Shown here: positions 33 to 61,810 of the stretch, in pieces
Numbering within the stretch: position 1 is the stretch's first letter
Layout: each line of letters opens with the position of its first letter
NCBI GenBank assembly: GCA_026224825.1
Contig: JAMFRO010000098.1
Coordinates: forward strand, 1 to 64,000
Source: a bacterium
GTDB taxonomy: Bacteria; Pseudomonadota; Alphaproteobacteria; Acetobacterales; Acetobacteraceae
Direction of reading: 5' to 3'
Length of the DNA: 64,000 nucleotides
Notes under the pieces: generated by a model
Told to the model about the DNA's origin: nothing
The model's database searches: none
What the model saw: the letters and a program-made list of their open reading frames with translations, nothing else
Translations under genes and position numbers: made by a program

Positions 33-276
33 GTATGGTTCGGGGGGTGTTAGAGAAAAAGGCCAGGGCTCTGCCCTGGACCCGCCAAGGGCCGAAGGGC
101 CCTTGGATCCCACCCGGGTCTTGGAAATGGATGCCCTCGAGATCACGTAGTTGGATAGCCCGTGCAGGGCATCCCTTTCCAAGACCCGAAGTAGTGGGGG
201 TCTGGGGCCTCAGGCCCCAGCGGGTCCAGGGCAGAGCCCTGGCCTTTTTCCTTAACACCCCCCGGAACCAAGCCTA
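33..276. repeat. Large nested palindromic element, copy 1
   Basis: The whole 244-bp gap between the upstream gene and ntrY is one nested palindrome. Outer arms 31-86 and 220-275 pair over about 56 bp with only five or so differences. Each arm contains a self-complementary core, GGCCAGGGCTCTGCCCTGG on the left, bordered outward by a run of A (left) or T (right), so each end looks like a terminator pointing out of the element. Inside are a left hairpin (85-106, CCAAGGGC...GCCCTTGG), a central hairpin (116-187) and a right hairpin (202-220). Folded as one strand it would be a four-way, cloverleaf-like structure. Two related copies lie at 44425-44658 and 60260-60470. Confidence 0.85.
116..187. 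repeat. Central hairpin of palindromic element copy 1
   Basis: Arms 116-137 (beginning GGGTCTTGGAAATGG) and 166-187 pair over 22 bp with one mismatch around a 28-nt loop. This centre is unrelated to the centres of copies 2 and 3, although the surrounding arms are the same family. It has no T-run and so is not a terminator by itself. Confidence 0.8.
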
Positions 277-3932: not shown

Positions 3933-3980
3933 AGTACCCAAAAAAACTTTATAAATTGGGCCACGGGCTCCTCAACTCCC

Positions 3981-4062
3981 CGTCATTGCGAGCGCAGCGA
4001 AGCAACCCATCTTGTCTGCAACATCCCGAAAGATGGGTTGCTTCGCTGCGCTCGCAATGACG
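3981..4062. repeat. REP-like palindrome (CGTCATTGCGAGCG family), complete copy
   Basis: Two perfectly complementary 32-bp arms (3981-4012 and 4031-4062) flank an 18-nt loop. The arms begin CGTCATTGCGAGCG and end in AGCAACCCATCT. The same family recurs at 51939-52023 and as a half-site at 52335-52367. Here it sits between the convergent ends of ntrX and glmU, a usual position for such elements. Confidence 0.9.
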
Positions 4063-4101
4063 GCTTTGGATAATGAGGGGAGTCGGGGGTAAAGCCCCCC
4101 A

Positions 4102-21049: not shown

Positions 21050-22219
21050 ATGGAAAGAAAAGATGGCCCTGTTCTCGGCATTGAAAGCTCCTGCGACGAA
21101 ACCGCCGCAGCGATCCTGGCCGCCGATGGCTCCATCCTGGCCGAGCGCGTGCTGAGCCAGATCGCCGACCACGCGGCCTTCGGCGGTGTGGTGCCGGAAA
21201 TCGCCGCCCGCGCCCATCTCACCGCTTTGGATGCCATGGTGAAAGACACTTTGCGCGAAGCCGGGCTGGAATTCACCGATCTCGCCGCCATCGCCGCCAC
21301 CGCCGGGCCGGGGCTCATCGGCGGGCTGCTGGTCGGCACCGGCTATGCCAAGGGTGCGGCCATCGCTTCGGGCGTGCCCTATCTCGCCATCAACCATCTG
21401 GAAGCGCACGGCCTCACCGCCCGCCTGCCCGGCATGGCCCCCACCCAGCCCGCATTCCCTTATTTGCTCCTGCTCCTGTCCGGCGGCCACAGCCAATGCG
21501 TCGCGGTGGAGGGTGTGGGATGCTACCGCCTGCTCGGCACCACGCTGGACGACGCCGTGGGCGAGGCCTTCGACAAATCCGCCAAACTCCTCGGCCTGGC
21601 ATACCCCGGCGGCCCGGCCCTGGAAGCCATCGCCCGCGAGGGCGATGCCAGCGCCGTCCACCTGCCGCGCCCGCTGCTGCACCGCGCGGGGTGTGATTTC
21701 TCGTTCTCCGGGCTAAAAACCGCCGTGGCCCAACTCATCGCCACCGAACCCCCCGGCCCGCTATCCCGTAGCCGCGCCGCCAACATCGCCGCCAGTTTTC
21801 AAGCCGCCGTCACGAACATACTGGGCGACCGCCTGGAACATGCCCTGGCCATGTGCCCGGATGCCTCCGCCATCATCATCGCCGGTGGCGTGGCCGCCAA
21901 CACCGCCATCCGCACCCGTTTGGCGCAAGTCGCGGCAGCAGCGGGCAAACCCCTCATCGCCCCGCCCCTGCGCCTGTGCACCGACAACGCCGTGATGGTC
22001 GCCTGGGCCGGGCTGGAGCGGCTGAACGCCGGGTTTTCCTCTACCCTCGACGCCCCCTGCAAACCGCGCTGGCCTTTGGAGGCTATTTCGAACTCCCCCA
22101 CCCTCCCGTCATCCCCGTCACCCCCGTCATCCCCGCGAAAGCGGGGATCTCTGGCGCCCTCGGCCATGGGAGCGAGAGATCCCCGCTTTCGCGGGGATGA
22201 CGGGGAGGCCCCGGCATGA
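21050..22219 (+). CDS. tsaD: tRNA threonylcarbamoyladenosine synthesis protein TsaD, with repeat-encoded C-terminus
   Basis: Universal ASKHA-fold enzyme that transfers the threonylcarbamoyl group to A37 of ANN-decoding tRNAs, with TsaB and TsaE. Conserved marks are VLGIESSCDETAAAIL, the metal motif HLEAH in INHLEAHGLTARL, LLSGGHSQC, and LCTDNAVMVAWAGLE near the end. The normal protein ends close to PRWPLEAI. Here the frame runs on for about 40 residues through a palindromic repeat (22123-22204), giving a Ser/Pro-rich then PRKRG...RGDDGEAPA tail. The stop overlaps the rlmJ ATG by 4 bp. Confidence 0.95.
   Translation: MERKDGPVLGIESSCDETAAAILAADGSILAERVLSQIADHAAFGGVVPEIAARAHLTALDAMVKDTLREAGLEFTDLAAIAATAGPGLIGGLLVGTGYAKGAAIASGVPYLAINHLEAHGLTARLPGMAPTQPAFPYLLLLLSGGHSQCVAVEGVGCYRLLGTTLDDAVGEAFDKSAKLLGLAYPGGPALEAIAREGDASAVHLPRPLLHRAGCDFSFSGLKTAVAQLIATEPPGPLSRSRAANIAASFQAAVTNILGDRLEHALAMCPDASAIIIAGGVAANTAIRTRLAQVAAAAGKPLIAPPLRLCTDNAVMVAWAGLERLNAGFSSTLDAPCKPRWPLEAISNSPTLPSSPSPPSSPRKRGSLAPSAMGARDPRFRGDDGEAPA
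22123..22204. repeat. Palindromic repeat (CCGTCATCCCCGCG family) inside the tsaD reading frame
   Basis: Perfect 30-bp inverted arms (22123-22152 and 22175-22204), beginning CCCGTCATCCCCGCGAAAGC, flank a 22-nt loop. The element lies wholly within the tsaD frame and ends 11 bp before the rlmJ start. Related copies are at 27731-27812, 37864-37907 and a half-site near 51881-51898. Confidence 0.9.
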
Positions 22220-27730: not shown

Positions 27731-27812
27731 CCCGTCATTCCCGCGAAAGCGGGAATCTGTCGCTCCCGGGACACGGGTGGGAGCAGATTCCCGCTTTCGC
27801 GGGAATGACGGG
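27731..27812. repeat. Palindromic repeat (CCCGTCATTCCCGCG family) upstream of ahcY
   Basis: Perfect 29-bp inverted arms (27731-27759 and 27784-27812) flank a 24-nt loop. It lies between the ahcY start and the end of the cytochrome c gene, both on the minus strand, and would form a strong hairpin in a read-through transcript. Confidence 0.9.
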
Positions 27813-44424: not shown

Positions 44425-44658
44425 GGCTGGGTGTTTGTGAGGAAAAAGGCCAGGGCTCTGCCCTGGACCCGCCAAGGGCCGAAGGGCCCTTGGATCCCGC
44501 TACTTAAGACTTAAAAAAGAGGCCTGCCACTTCGGTGTTTCAAACACCGGGGAGGCAGGCCTCTTTTTTAAGTCTTCAACTAATGGGGGTCTGGGGCCTC
44601 AGGCCCCAGCGGGGTCAGGGGCGGAGCCCCAGCCTTTTTCCTTACAAACACCCACCCC
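44425..44658. repeat. Large nested palindromic element, copy 2
   Basis: The element fills the whole gap between two convergent genes and its palindromy runs from one stop codon to the other: TAG on the plus strand (44422-44424) and TAG on the minus strand (44659-44657). The locus-specific outer arms pair as GGGTGTTTGT-(G/A)-AGGAAAAAGGC. The family part (44446-44490 and 44590-44635) matches copy 1, including the CCAAGGGC/GCCCTTGG hairpin and the right CTGGGGCCT/AGGCCCCAG hairpin. The right arm has diverged from the left at several places. The centre is a bidirectional terminator. Confidence 0.88.
44506..44576. terminator. Bidirectional intrinsic terminator, centre of element copy 2
   Basis: Arms 44506-44528 and 44554-44576 are perfectly complementary over 23 bp and include AAAAAAGAGGCCTGCC and its complement. 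GC-rich stem plus A-run before and T-run after make it a terminator in both directions, fitting its place between convergent genes. The loop holds a further hairpin, GGTGTTT-C-AAACACC. Confidence 0.85.
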
Positions 44659-51938: not shown

Positions 51939-52023
51939 GCCGTCATTGCGAGCGTAGCGAAGCAATCCATCTTTCGTGCCGCGCCACGGAGATGGATTGC
52001 TTCGCTACGCTCGCAATGACGGC
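51939..52023. repeat. REP-like palindrome (CGTCATTGCGAGCG family), complete copy
   Basis: Perfect 34-bp arms (51939-51972 and 51990-52023) flank a 17-nt loop. The arms match the copy at 3981-4062 except for a few bases (GCGTAGCGAAGCAATCC instead of GCGCAGCGAAGCAACCC). It ends 15 bp after... i.e. just downstream of the GIY-YIG gene's stop. A half-site of the CCCGC family lies nearby at 51881-51898. Confidence 0.9.
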
Positions 52024-52038
52024 TTTTGTTGGCGATCT

Positions 52039-52326
52039 TCACAGCAGCGCATCGTATAAATCGGTCCAATCTGGGTTTTGCTCCATGATCAGCCGGATTT
52101 TTGCTGCCCGGGAGCCGCCTTTGATTTGTTTTTCGCGCAGGATGGCGGATTCCATCGTTTCGTGAAGTTCCCACCAGACGAGGGTTTTCAGCCCGTATCG
52201 CGCGGTGAAACCACCGAGTTGTCCGTCTCGGTGCTGGCCAATTCTCTGGATCAGGTTGGAGGTCACGACTGTGTAGAGCGTGCCGTTTTTCTTGTTCGTT
52301 AAAATATAGACTGCTGGTTGTTTCAT
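52039..52326 (-). CDS. Stand-alone GIY-YIG nuclease-like protein with altered YIG motif
   Basis: A 95-residue protein of the small GIY-YIG endonuclease group. VYILTNKKNGTLYTVVTSNL aligns with the family start, in which the second motif is normally YIG; here it reads YTV. The catalytic Arg (LIQRIGQH) and the metal-binding Glu (MESAILREKQIK) are kept. The C-terminal NPDWTDLYD is typical. The gene is bracketed by members of one palindrome family (51939-52023 and 52335-52367), as if mobilised or maintained with them. It may be active on branched DNA, or be decaying. Confidence 0.8.
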   Translation of the reverse strand: MKQPAVYILTNKKNGTLYTVVTSNLIQRIGQHRDGQLGGFTARYGLKTLVWWELHETMESAILREKQIKGGSRAAKIRLIMEQNPDWTDLYDALL

Positions 52327-52334
52327 GGCCAGTA

Positions 52335-52367
52335 AGATGGATTGCTTCGCTTCGCTCGCAATGACGG
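52335..52367. repeat. REP-like palindrome family, half-site upstream of the GIY-YIG gene
   Basis: AGATGGATTGCTTCGC...CTCGCAATGACGG is one arm of the family present complete at 51939-52023. It begins 8 bp upstream of the GIY-YIG start codon and has no partner arm nearby. Confidence 0.8.
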
Positions 52368-60259: not shown

Positions 60260-60470
60260 GAACGTATAAAAAGGCCAGGGCTCTGCCGTCGTGCGAAGCA
60301 CGCCTCCGGCGTGACGACCCGCCAAGGGCCGAAAGGCCCTTGGATCCCGCTACTTAAGACTTAAAAAAGAGGCCTGCCACCACGGTGTTTGAAACACCTA
60401 GGAGGCAGGCCTCTTTTTTAAGTCTAACTAATGGGGGTCTGGGGCGGAGCCCCAGCCTTTTTATACGTTC
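60260..60470. repeat. Large nested palindromic element, copy 3
   Basis: The outer arms GAACGTATAAAAAGGC (60260-60275) and its exact complement (60455-60470) bound the element. The right arm contains the last two codons and stop of the ligase gene (Asn-Val-TAA). The left arm is therefore an inverted copy of that gene end in non-coding DNA. Inside, the family part is reduced: the right arm lacks about 25 bp relative to copies 1 and 2, and the left arm carries an extra GTCGTGCG...CGTGACGAC hairpin (60288-60318). The centre is a bidirectional terminator. It separates the kdp promoter from the upstream polyamine operon. Confidence 0.85.
60356..60425. terminator. Bidirectional intrinsic terminator, centre of element copy 3
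   Basis: Arms 60356-60378 and 60404-60425 pair over 22 bp with an A-run before and a T-run after the AGAGGCCTGCC stem. The arms are the same as in copy 2, while the loop differs (GGTGTTT-G-AAACACC). On the minus strand it would end the polyamine operon before kdp. Confidence 0.85.
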
Positions 60471-61810
60471 AATAGCAAATGCTCGCGTTCCCACGACGAG
60501 ATGACGCGCAGGTAGGTTTCGTACTCCAGGCGTTTTACGGCCACCAGTACGTCTACCAGTTTGTCGCCGAGGATTTCGCGGATGGGTTTGCTGTCGTTCA
60601 TCAAATCCAGCGCGTGGGAGAGTTCTCGGGGGAGCGTGTATTCGCCGGTGTAGGCGCTGCCGATTTGTTCTGTGGTGGGTTCTAGTTTTTCGACCATGCC
60701 AAGGTAGCCGCAGGCGAGTGTGGCGGCGAAGGCGAGGTAGGGGTTGGCGTCGGCGCCGGGCACGCGGTTTTCCACGCGCATGGCGGAGGCATCGCCGAAG
60801 GGCACGCGCAGGCCGCAGGTGCGGTTATCGTAACCCCATTGCAGGTTGATGGGGGCGTTGGAGAAGCGCGTCAGGCGGCGGTAGGAATTCACGTTGGGGG
60901 CGAAGATGGGCATGGTTGCGGGGATGTATTTTTGCAGGCCGGCGATGTAGCGGCGGAAGAGTTTGCTGGCTTTGCCGTCGGCGCCGGCGAAGAGGTTTTT
61001 GCCGGTTTCGGGGTCGACGATGCTCTGGTGCACATGCATGGCCGAGCCGGGTTCGCCGCCCATGGGTTTGGCCATGAAGGTGGCGTAGATGTTGTGGCGC
61101 AGGGCGACTTCGCGCACCGTGCGTTTGAACAGGAAGACCTGGTCGGCGAGTGCCAGCGGGTCGCCGTGCAGGAAGTTGATTTCCACCTGGGCGGCACCTT
61201 CCTCATGGATCAACGTGTCGAGATCCATCTCCTGCAGGTCGCAGAAATCGTACATTTCCTCGAACAGCGGGTCGAATTCGTTCACCGCGTCGATGGAGTA
61301 GCTCTGGCGCCCGGTTTCCTGCCGGCCGGAGCGGCCGACGGGGGGCACGAGCGGGTAGTCGGGGTCGGTGTTGCGGGCGACGAGGTAGAATTCAAGTTCC
61401 GGGGCCAGAACGGGTTTCCAGCCCTTGTCCTCGTAAAGCTTCAGCACGCTGCGCAACACTTGCCGAGGCGCCATCGGCACCGGCGTGCCGTTCGCGTATT
61501 GGCAATCATGGATGATCTGCGCCGTGGGTTCATGCGCCCAGGGCACCAGGCGGACGGTGGAGGCATCGGCGATCAGCTTGATGTCGATGATCGCGGGGTC
61601 GGAGAGCCTGTCCTCGGGGTCGTCCGGATATTCGCCGGTGACGGATTGGATGAAGATGGCTTCCGGCAGGCGGGGCGCGCCGCCCTGGAAGAATTTCTGC
61701 GCCGGCATGATCTTGCCGCGCGGGATGCCGGTTATATCCGGCACCATGCATTCCACTTCGGTGATTCGATGTTCGTCGAACCACTCTTTGAGGTCGATTT
61801 CTTTAGCCAT
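60461..61810 (-). CDS. Glutamine-synthetase-family ligase, probable gamma-glutamylpolyamine synthetase
   Basis: A 449-residue member of the glutamine synthetase fold, of the PuuA-like type rather than nitrogen-assimilating GlnA. Visible motifs are DITGIPRGKIMP, VLAPELEFYLVA, EGAAQVEINFLHGDPL, FMAKPMGGEPGSAMHVHQS (ATP/glutamate site) and DNRTCGLRVPFGDA. PuuA joins glutamate to putrescine as the first step of polyamine catabolism. The gene is last in an operon with a polyamine ABC transporter, which supports this role. Its stop is inside palindromic element copy 3. Confidence 0.82.
   Translation of the reverse strand: MAKEIDLKEWFDEHRITEVECMVPDITGIPRGKIMPAQKFFQGGAPRLPEAIFIQSVTGEYPDDPEDRLSDPAIIDIKLIADASTVRLVPWAHEPTAQIIHDCQYANGTPVPMAPRQVLRSVLKLYEDKGWKPVLAPELEFYLVARNTDPDYPLVPPVGRSGRQETGRQSYSIDAVNEFDPLFEEMYDFCDLQEMDLDTLIHEEGAAQVEINFLHGDPLALADQVFLFKRTVREVALRHNIYATFMAKPMGGEPGSAMHVHQSIVDPETGKNLFAGADGKASKLFRRYIAGLQKYIPATMPIFAPNVNSYRRLTRFSNAPINLQWGYDNRTCGLRVPFGDASAMRVENRVPGADANPYLAFAATLACGYLGMVEKLEPTTEQIGSAYTGEYTLPRELSHALDLMNDSKPIREILGDKLVDVLVAVKRLEYETYLRVISSWEREHLLLNV

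Follow-up and report, generated by a model that had tools for sequence, protein, structure and literature searches.

Three nested palindromes and the family they represent

The window, by which we mean the whole 64,000-nt stretch analysed (G000:C39:1-64000, from an assembly of 4.27 Mb in 108 contigs), contains three copies of a nested palindrome. In each, a pair of outer arms encloses a CCAAGGGCC hairpin and an inner palindrome, at the following positions.

37-63, plus strand: left outer arm of copy 1, GGTTCGGGGGGTGTTAGAGAAAAAGGC
85-106, no strand assigned: CCAAGGGCC hairpin of copy 1, the anchor of a 98-copy family
115-188, no strand assigned: inner palindrome of copy 1, CGGGTCTTGGAAA type (subfamily assigned by comparison), with 23-nt arms and 28 nt between them
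242-269, minus strand: right outer arm of copy 1; an open frame begins at 277
44429-44450, plus strand: left outer arm of copy 2, GGGTGTTTGTGAGGAAAAAGGC
44472-44493, no strand assigned: CCAAGGGCC hairpin of copy 2
44506-44576, no strand assigned: inner palindrome of copy 2, AAGACTTAAAAAAGAGGCCTGCC, whose tip is inverted in copy L024
44632-44653, minus strand: right outer arm of copy 2
60260-60275, plus strand: left outer arm of copy 3, GAACGTATAAAAAGGC, on the side of a kdpA-like gene
60322-60343, no strand assigned: CCAAGGGCC hairpin of copy 3
60357-60425, no strand assigned: inner palindrome of copy 3
60455-60470, minus strand: right outer arm of copy 3, in which 60461-60469 are the last codons (N, V, stop) of a glutamine-synthetase-like gene at 60461-61810

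A sequence-only reading of this DNA had reported three copies with shared internal blocks, and these are present as it described them. A long open frame begins shortly downstream of copy 1, whose inner palindrome belongs to a different subfamily from those of copies 2 and 3; copy 3 lies between the glutamine-synthetase-like gene and kdp-like genes that are read in the same direction. Gene names given in this account (glutamine synthetase, kdp, FtsZ, bactofilin, nitronate monooxygenase, relA and acpS) are presumptive readings of the sequences. A second glutamine-synthetase-like gene, encoding a protein 91% identical to that beside copy 3, is present at G000:C2:2576-3913 and is either a paralog or a product of strain mixture. 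The window also carries other palindromic repeats of different sequence (CCGTCATTGCGAGCG..., CCCGTCATTCCCGCGAAAGCGGG...), at 3980-4063, 22122-22205, 27731-27812 and 51939-52367. An Rfam scan of the window returned a single match, a tRNA, and the repeat itself matched no RNA family.

The genome contains 98 hairpins of the form CCAAGGGCC-loop-GGCCCTTGG, and its reversed control contains none. An ATCCC tail accompanies 89 of these hairpins, from whose loci 79 distinct sequences were extracted, some of them at contig ends; a left edge could be placed in 70, both edges in 58, and 55 retained at least 70 nt on each side. Between its outer anchors the element measures approximately 150-250 bp, the arms being additional. 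By hand count at least 32 of the 89 copies lie at contig ends, within about 300 nt, so that the repeat seems to break assembly and the copy number may be a lower bound; the present assembly and that of G014, the relative in which the element is most abundant, are both fragmented. A 66-nt query found matches in 12 of 36 further genomes from the genus and in none of 24 outside it. Among the matches listed, a 33-nt core recurs exactly in metagenome-assembled genomes (MAGs) titled Acetobacteraceae, Rhodospirillales, Asaia, Rhodospirillum and others, some of which may be of the same genus.

On each side of 38 of 58 copies there is the end of an open frame at least 120 codons long (a hand count of frames rather than gene calls, some of them wrong), and stop codons often lie in or at the arms. 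At the junction of a relA-like and an acpS-like gene (L098), the element parts two genes that share a few bases in relatives, and TGAT stands on both sides of it, as a direct target-site duplication might; this is a single case read by eye.

Pairing of arms and stems within copies

As the sequence-only reading had held, the outer stem of each window copy is specific to that copy and yet self-complementary. The anchored scores of each left arm with its own right arm are 31.0, 28.5 and 22.5 for copies 1, 2 and 3, against best scores of 15.5, 16.0 and 9.0 when the opposite arms of the 55 measured copies are tried. When the left flank was shuffled and the comparison limited to 32 nt beyond the anchor, the corresponding scores (22.5, 22.5 and 21.5) were reached by none of 5,000 shuffles in each case. 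The pairing of copy 1 includes one bulged base and a short mismatch, as read from the alignment, while all 16 positions pair in copy 3. Copy 2 shows weak same-side kinship with two other copies (19.5 with L108, 17.0 with L067); the arms of copy 3 are local and match those of no other copy.

The sequence-only reading had suggested that complementarity be followed past the common core throughout the genome. Among the 55 copies, left arms scored against reversed right arms average 23.5 within copies and 9.2 between them, and arms of the same side resemble one another across copies no better (9.1 and 9.5). An arm's own partner outscores all others in 42 of 55 comparisons from left to right and in 44 of 55 from right to left, and the observed sum of 1295 was reached in none of 20,000 permutations, the maximum of which was 649. 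Permutations and shuffles together rule out chance as the cause of the pairing. Dispersal of an element with fixed ends, followed by drift, would predict the reverse of this pattern, and an insertion sequence or MITE with fixed ends is rejected on the ground that the ends vary among copies in both sequence and length. The longest ungapped arms are those of L032 (51 nt, one mismatch) and L087 (44 nt, perfect). Many copies carry a longer arm of a common type, GGTTCTGAGGGCGGGGGTGTTCCACGGAAAAGGC, which indicates that such arms are partly element sequence. In 13 of the 55 copies the own partner is not the best match, and some of the copies whose arms match better elsewhere look recombined. The left arm of L026 scores 23.0 with the right arm of L029 and 8.5 with its own partner, which suggests exchange between copies.

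The same behaviour extends inward. Inner stems of 59 copies score 14.7 within and 3.7 between copies, against 8.1 for the same side between copies, and their sum of 869.5 compares with a maximum of 389 in 10,000 permutations. These stems vary as whole blocks, such as AAGACTTAAAAAAGAGG, AAGAATTGAAAAGGGCC and AAGGGTTTGAAAGGGG, and each block has its match on the opposite side. Tips between the stems occur in both orientations: 29 of 95 copy pairs (match at least 93%) align better when one tip is inverted, many of the pairs having tips so nearly symmetric that the orientations differ little. Clean inversions separate L025 from L026, L028 and L090 (forward 0.46-0.57, inverted 1.0) and L106 from L109 (forward 0.79, inverted 1.0).

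Such pairing might be expected if the element acted as a bidirectional terminator or another RNA hairpin, with selection keeping its stems paired by ordinary compensatory substitutions. Bidirectional intrinsic terminators between convergent genes consist of a hairpin with an A-run before it and a T-run after it. The element shares this arrangement, and relatives have ordinary terminators at some of the same sites; it differs in forming a dispersed family, in its variable inner palindromes and in arms that continue past the T-runs. The DNA fold is very stable (-99.2 kcal/mol against a shuffle mean of -42.8, z -13.4). Copy 2 has a GC-rich stem with a T-run on both strands, giving one terminator-like site per strand inside the element; with three such sites in its region, two of them within the element, the excess over shuffles is modest (mean 0.9, sd 1.3). 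Together with the frequency of frames ending on both sides, these features make a putative role in ending convergent transcription plausible. Paired changes in the inner stems are likewise what selection would leave, as in genome G034, where AAATAAAAAGGG and AAAGAAAAAGGG alternate on both sides. However, the outer arms extend beyond the T-runs, at some loci into codons, so that in copies 2 and 3 a terminated transcript would lack one side and selection acting on it would be blind to the pairing of both. Moreover, copies differ by blocks rather than by single pairs, their tips are inverted, and the same 33-nt hairpin core occurs without paired arms in the MAG CALMVO. As a general account, selection on the stems is therefore an unlikely one.

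Sites with and without the element in related genomes

The sequence-only reading had regarded empty orthologous loci already carrying the arms as evidence against copying of the flanks, and here the comparison divides. At 13 loci, judged by eye, an element-free relative lacks the arms that are present with the element: L067 (G014 and G033), L032 (G014), L093, L079 and L108 (all G033), L087 (G025 and G026), L007 (G021), L013 (G014), L015 (G016), L021 and L047 (both G018), L066 (G016) and L075, where the element-free genome is that of the window itself. L074 was left off this list, its arms being weak even with the element (11.0). On the other side, arms are present without the full element at four loci, around a short hairpin. 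At L010, in both G014 and G033, they flank a hairpin in a gap of 29-30 nt; at L006 in G014 a solo hairpin with long arms and no inner element lies in about 590 nt between genes; at L019 in G014 a similar solo has long arms, only its left gene being recognised; and L093 exists in three states, empty in G033, solo with arms in G014 and full in the genome of the window.

These solos are an argument that the element inserted into the loop of palindromes, such as local terminators, already standing at each site, the outer arms then being the old local stem. Other element-free sites also have palindromes of their own. Several of the 13 carry an ordinary terminator or a short stem: at L021 in G018 a stem extends about five pairs past the A-run, at L047 in G018 a five-pair hairpin stands between the stops, and at L108 in G033 GAAATAG ends both genes around a GC-rich stem. 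At L099 in G014 an unrelated 23-pair palindrome occupies the place of the element. Against this account stand the 13 loci without arms. In addition, a solo is the expected product of slippage between the repeat's own CCAGGGC copies, so that the solos may be deletion products and may predate or postdate the full form. Insertion into existing palindromes would, moreover, leave the paired inner palindromes and inverted tips unexplained, and we consider it improbable as the general origin of the arms, somewhat more so than selection. The long arms of L032 and L067, absent from element-free sites, must have come with the element or grown later.

Where arms reach into coding sequence, their relation to the flanking genes can be followed more closely. 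At L013 the right gene ends in ATG GAA GGG TAA, and the inverse stands on the left flank, matching at 18 of 18 nt including the shared end; in G014 the gene end is kept (ATG GAA GGC TGA), the left flank is unrelated and the inverted copy is missing. At L089 the right side matches the end of the left gene, TCCAAGGCCGCTTGA, and the final residues of that gene are conserved in G014 and G033. At L047 the matched codon tracts read TTTATCGCGTAGTTGGGGTAG and ATTATCGCGAAGCTGGGGTAG in G014 against TTCATCGCGTGATTGGGTAAGG and ATCATCGCGAGACTGGGATAAG in the genome of the window, a Lys/Arg codon (AAG/AGA) and the TAG/TGA stop of the opposite gene differing in parallel; element-free G018, distant at this locus (64-69% protein identity), has no matched tracts. 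The arms of L015 differ between the window's genome and G014, each pair being self-complementary and including the last codons of a bactofilin-like gene. The paired differences at L015 and L047 span several bases and may reflect single events; both comparisons are between species, no pair of close strains having been found. At copy 3 the gene end LLLNV-stop is found in all 11 relatives whose gene end was read, as well as in G014, G021 and G033. At this locus G014 carries a truncated half-element beside the glutamine-synthetase-like gene, and an additional gene precedes its kdp-like genes; its kdp side, which lacks ATACGTTC, therefore cannot serve as the ancestral state for copy 3.

Collectively, these loci bear on the proposal that flanking DNA is copied across the hairpin. 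Complementarity copy by copy, inverted tips, the paired differences at L015 and L047 and the gene-end copy of L013 that is missing in G014 all favour it; it goes too far in treating the outer arms as always derived from flanking DNA, given the common GGTTCTGAGGGCGGGGGTGTTCCACGGAAAAGGC type and the absence of the L032 and L067 arms from empty sites. Two systematic comparisons speak against it. Set against a relative, with L040 left out, arms of the window's genome matched better within than across genomes in 8 of 13 comparisons at 12 loci (Wilcoxon p 0.96, not significant), a test confounded by conserved codons, which dominate beyond short arms. Similarity measured in codons only, at convergent gene ends, was slightly higher with the element (6.78, n 27) than without it (5.82, n 22; one-sided p 0.045), in a sorting that counted three solos as element-free and one element-free site as carrying the element.

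Pairing within copies recurs in G014, where 14 copies average 17.0 within and 8.8 between, the own partner is best in 8 of 14, and none of 20,000 permutations reached the observed value; this set comprised hand-anchored loci with both arms on one contig, leaving out L156, L191, L200, L339 and the named JAMFRU loci. G007 (about 10 contigs), G020 and G034 (about 30 contigs) carry elements built to the same nested plan, with long arms and another outer hairpin, which speaks against an artefact of one assembly. Thus, although the window's genome and G014 are fragmented and many copies lie near contig ends, it is very improbable that an assembler folded back at the palindromes and wrote false inverted flanks, since the arms are imperfect, with mismatches and indels, and lie also deep inside contigs, and G007 and G034 repeat the architecture with other arm sequences.

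Results from MAGs sharing the 33-nt core are mixed. With the right edge searched freely and at most 14 copies per MAG, CALMVO shows no paired arms (5.9 within and 5.9 between; 2,497 of 5,000 permutations, 14 copies taken), CAIXDS gives a mean of 8.4 against 6.1 (5 of 5,000, 14 copies), and three JAMFRU (that is, G014) copies score 19-21. Under a right-edge rule fitted to the window's genome, by which 62 sequences were dropped, there was no signal in 10 copies of CAIXDS (3,840 of 20,000 permutations) or in 6 of CALMVO (13,726 of 20,000).

Further differences are seen between G014 and the genome of the window. The core is inverted at about 10 of 13 loci, by eye, which is no proof of copying, as independent insertion would look alike. 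In G014 a single element, its arms poorly matched (8.5), stands between an FtsZ-like gene and the left gene of L108, and the right gene of L108, near a contig end, has an arm resembling that of its old partner, which is found elsewhere (L214, L203). A rearrangement through two copies is the likely relation between L214/L203 in G014 and L007/L108 in the genome of the window, and in view of these swapped partners copies also seem to recombine with each other. At L156 (G014:C16), diverged inverted 3' ends of a nitronate-monooxygenase-like gene lie on both sides, running to the contig end, and represent either a pair of paralogs or a long inverted duplication.

Proposed template switching and related palindromic systems

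The reading that we favour, with a probability of roughly two in three, is that template switching in the nested, terminator-like palindrome keeps its halves complementary and that the copied tracts overshoot into the flanks. The palindrome would fold into a very stable hairpin, at which the nascent strand could fold back during replication and copy the opposite half, a process of quasipalindrome correction. Such a switch would sometimes invert the tip between the arms, and copying would sometimes pass the end of the repeat, placing on its far side an inverted version of one flank, in which the final codons of an adjacent gene may be included. Rewriting of a half from its counterpart, with overshoot, would account jointly for the arms, the inner stems, the tips and the codon tracts. 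The direction of each copying event is an inference, and so is the choice of replication template switching as the cause over recombination or selection. Tip inversion could also arise through recombination between arms, and part of what is seen may be due to selection acting on terminator stems or to insertion of the element at palindromes already in place.

The process as such is already known. Published signatures of template switching include multiple compensatory changes, stem extension and inverted loops (PMC8794818), and homogenization of arms and inversion of the spacer (PMC8604942). The present elements resemble products of quasipalindrome mutation, by which imperfect inverted repeats approach perfection, loops are inverted and stems lengthened (PMC7202029, PMC8604942, PMC8794818); the change of several bases at once, a further mark of that process, may be shared at L015 and L047. 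The cases treated in those reports, as far as consulted, are engineered lacZ sites, yeast genes and RNA genes. The elements described here, by contrast, form a family of about 98 copies scattered over one genome, and at some loci the copied tracts would extend into the ends of adjacent genes. No title or abstract listed in searches of the open-licence literature described template switching in this setting.

A second comparison is with REP and BIME sequences, which are also high-copy intergenic palindromes (PMC3733652, PMC2817692), a REP being a palindrome of 20-40 bp with a GTAG or CGTC tag at one end (PMC3733652). The element differs from these in being much longer and nested, in having no fixed ends and in the lack of a Y1_Tnp match. 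The genome of the window, in an assembly 94% complete, gave no match to Y1_Tnp (PF01797; 0 of 1), 5 of 14 control genomes being positive, and a RAYT-driven REP is rejected on this ground.

The persistence of long, near-perfect stems in the face of random mutation has been a question for many years. With about a hundred parallel copies in one genome, the majority carrying arms of their own, the rate of re-copying and the length of its tracts would become measurable by sequencing close strains, and unrelated convergent genes with matched coding ends could be misread by standard tests as being under selection. More tentatively, and with less than even confidence, we suggest that these dispersed palindromes act locally as copying devices that rewrite one of their halves as well as adjoining gene ends, that codons and stops of convergent genes may consequently co-evolve, and that recombination between copies together with re-copying might keep long, near-perfect hairpins in the genome without selection on their sequence.
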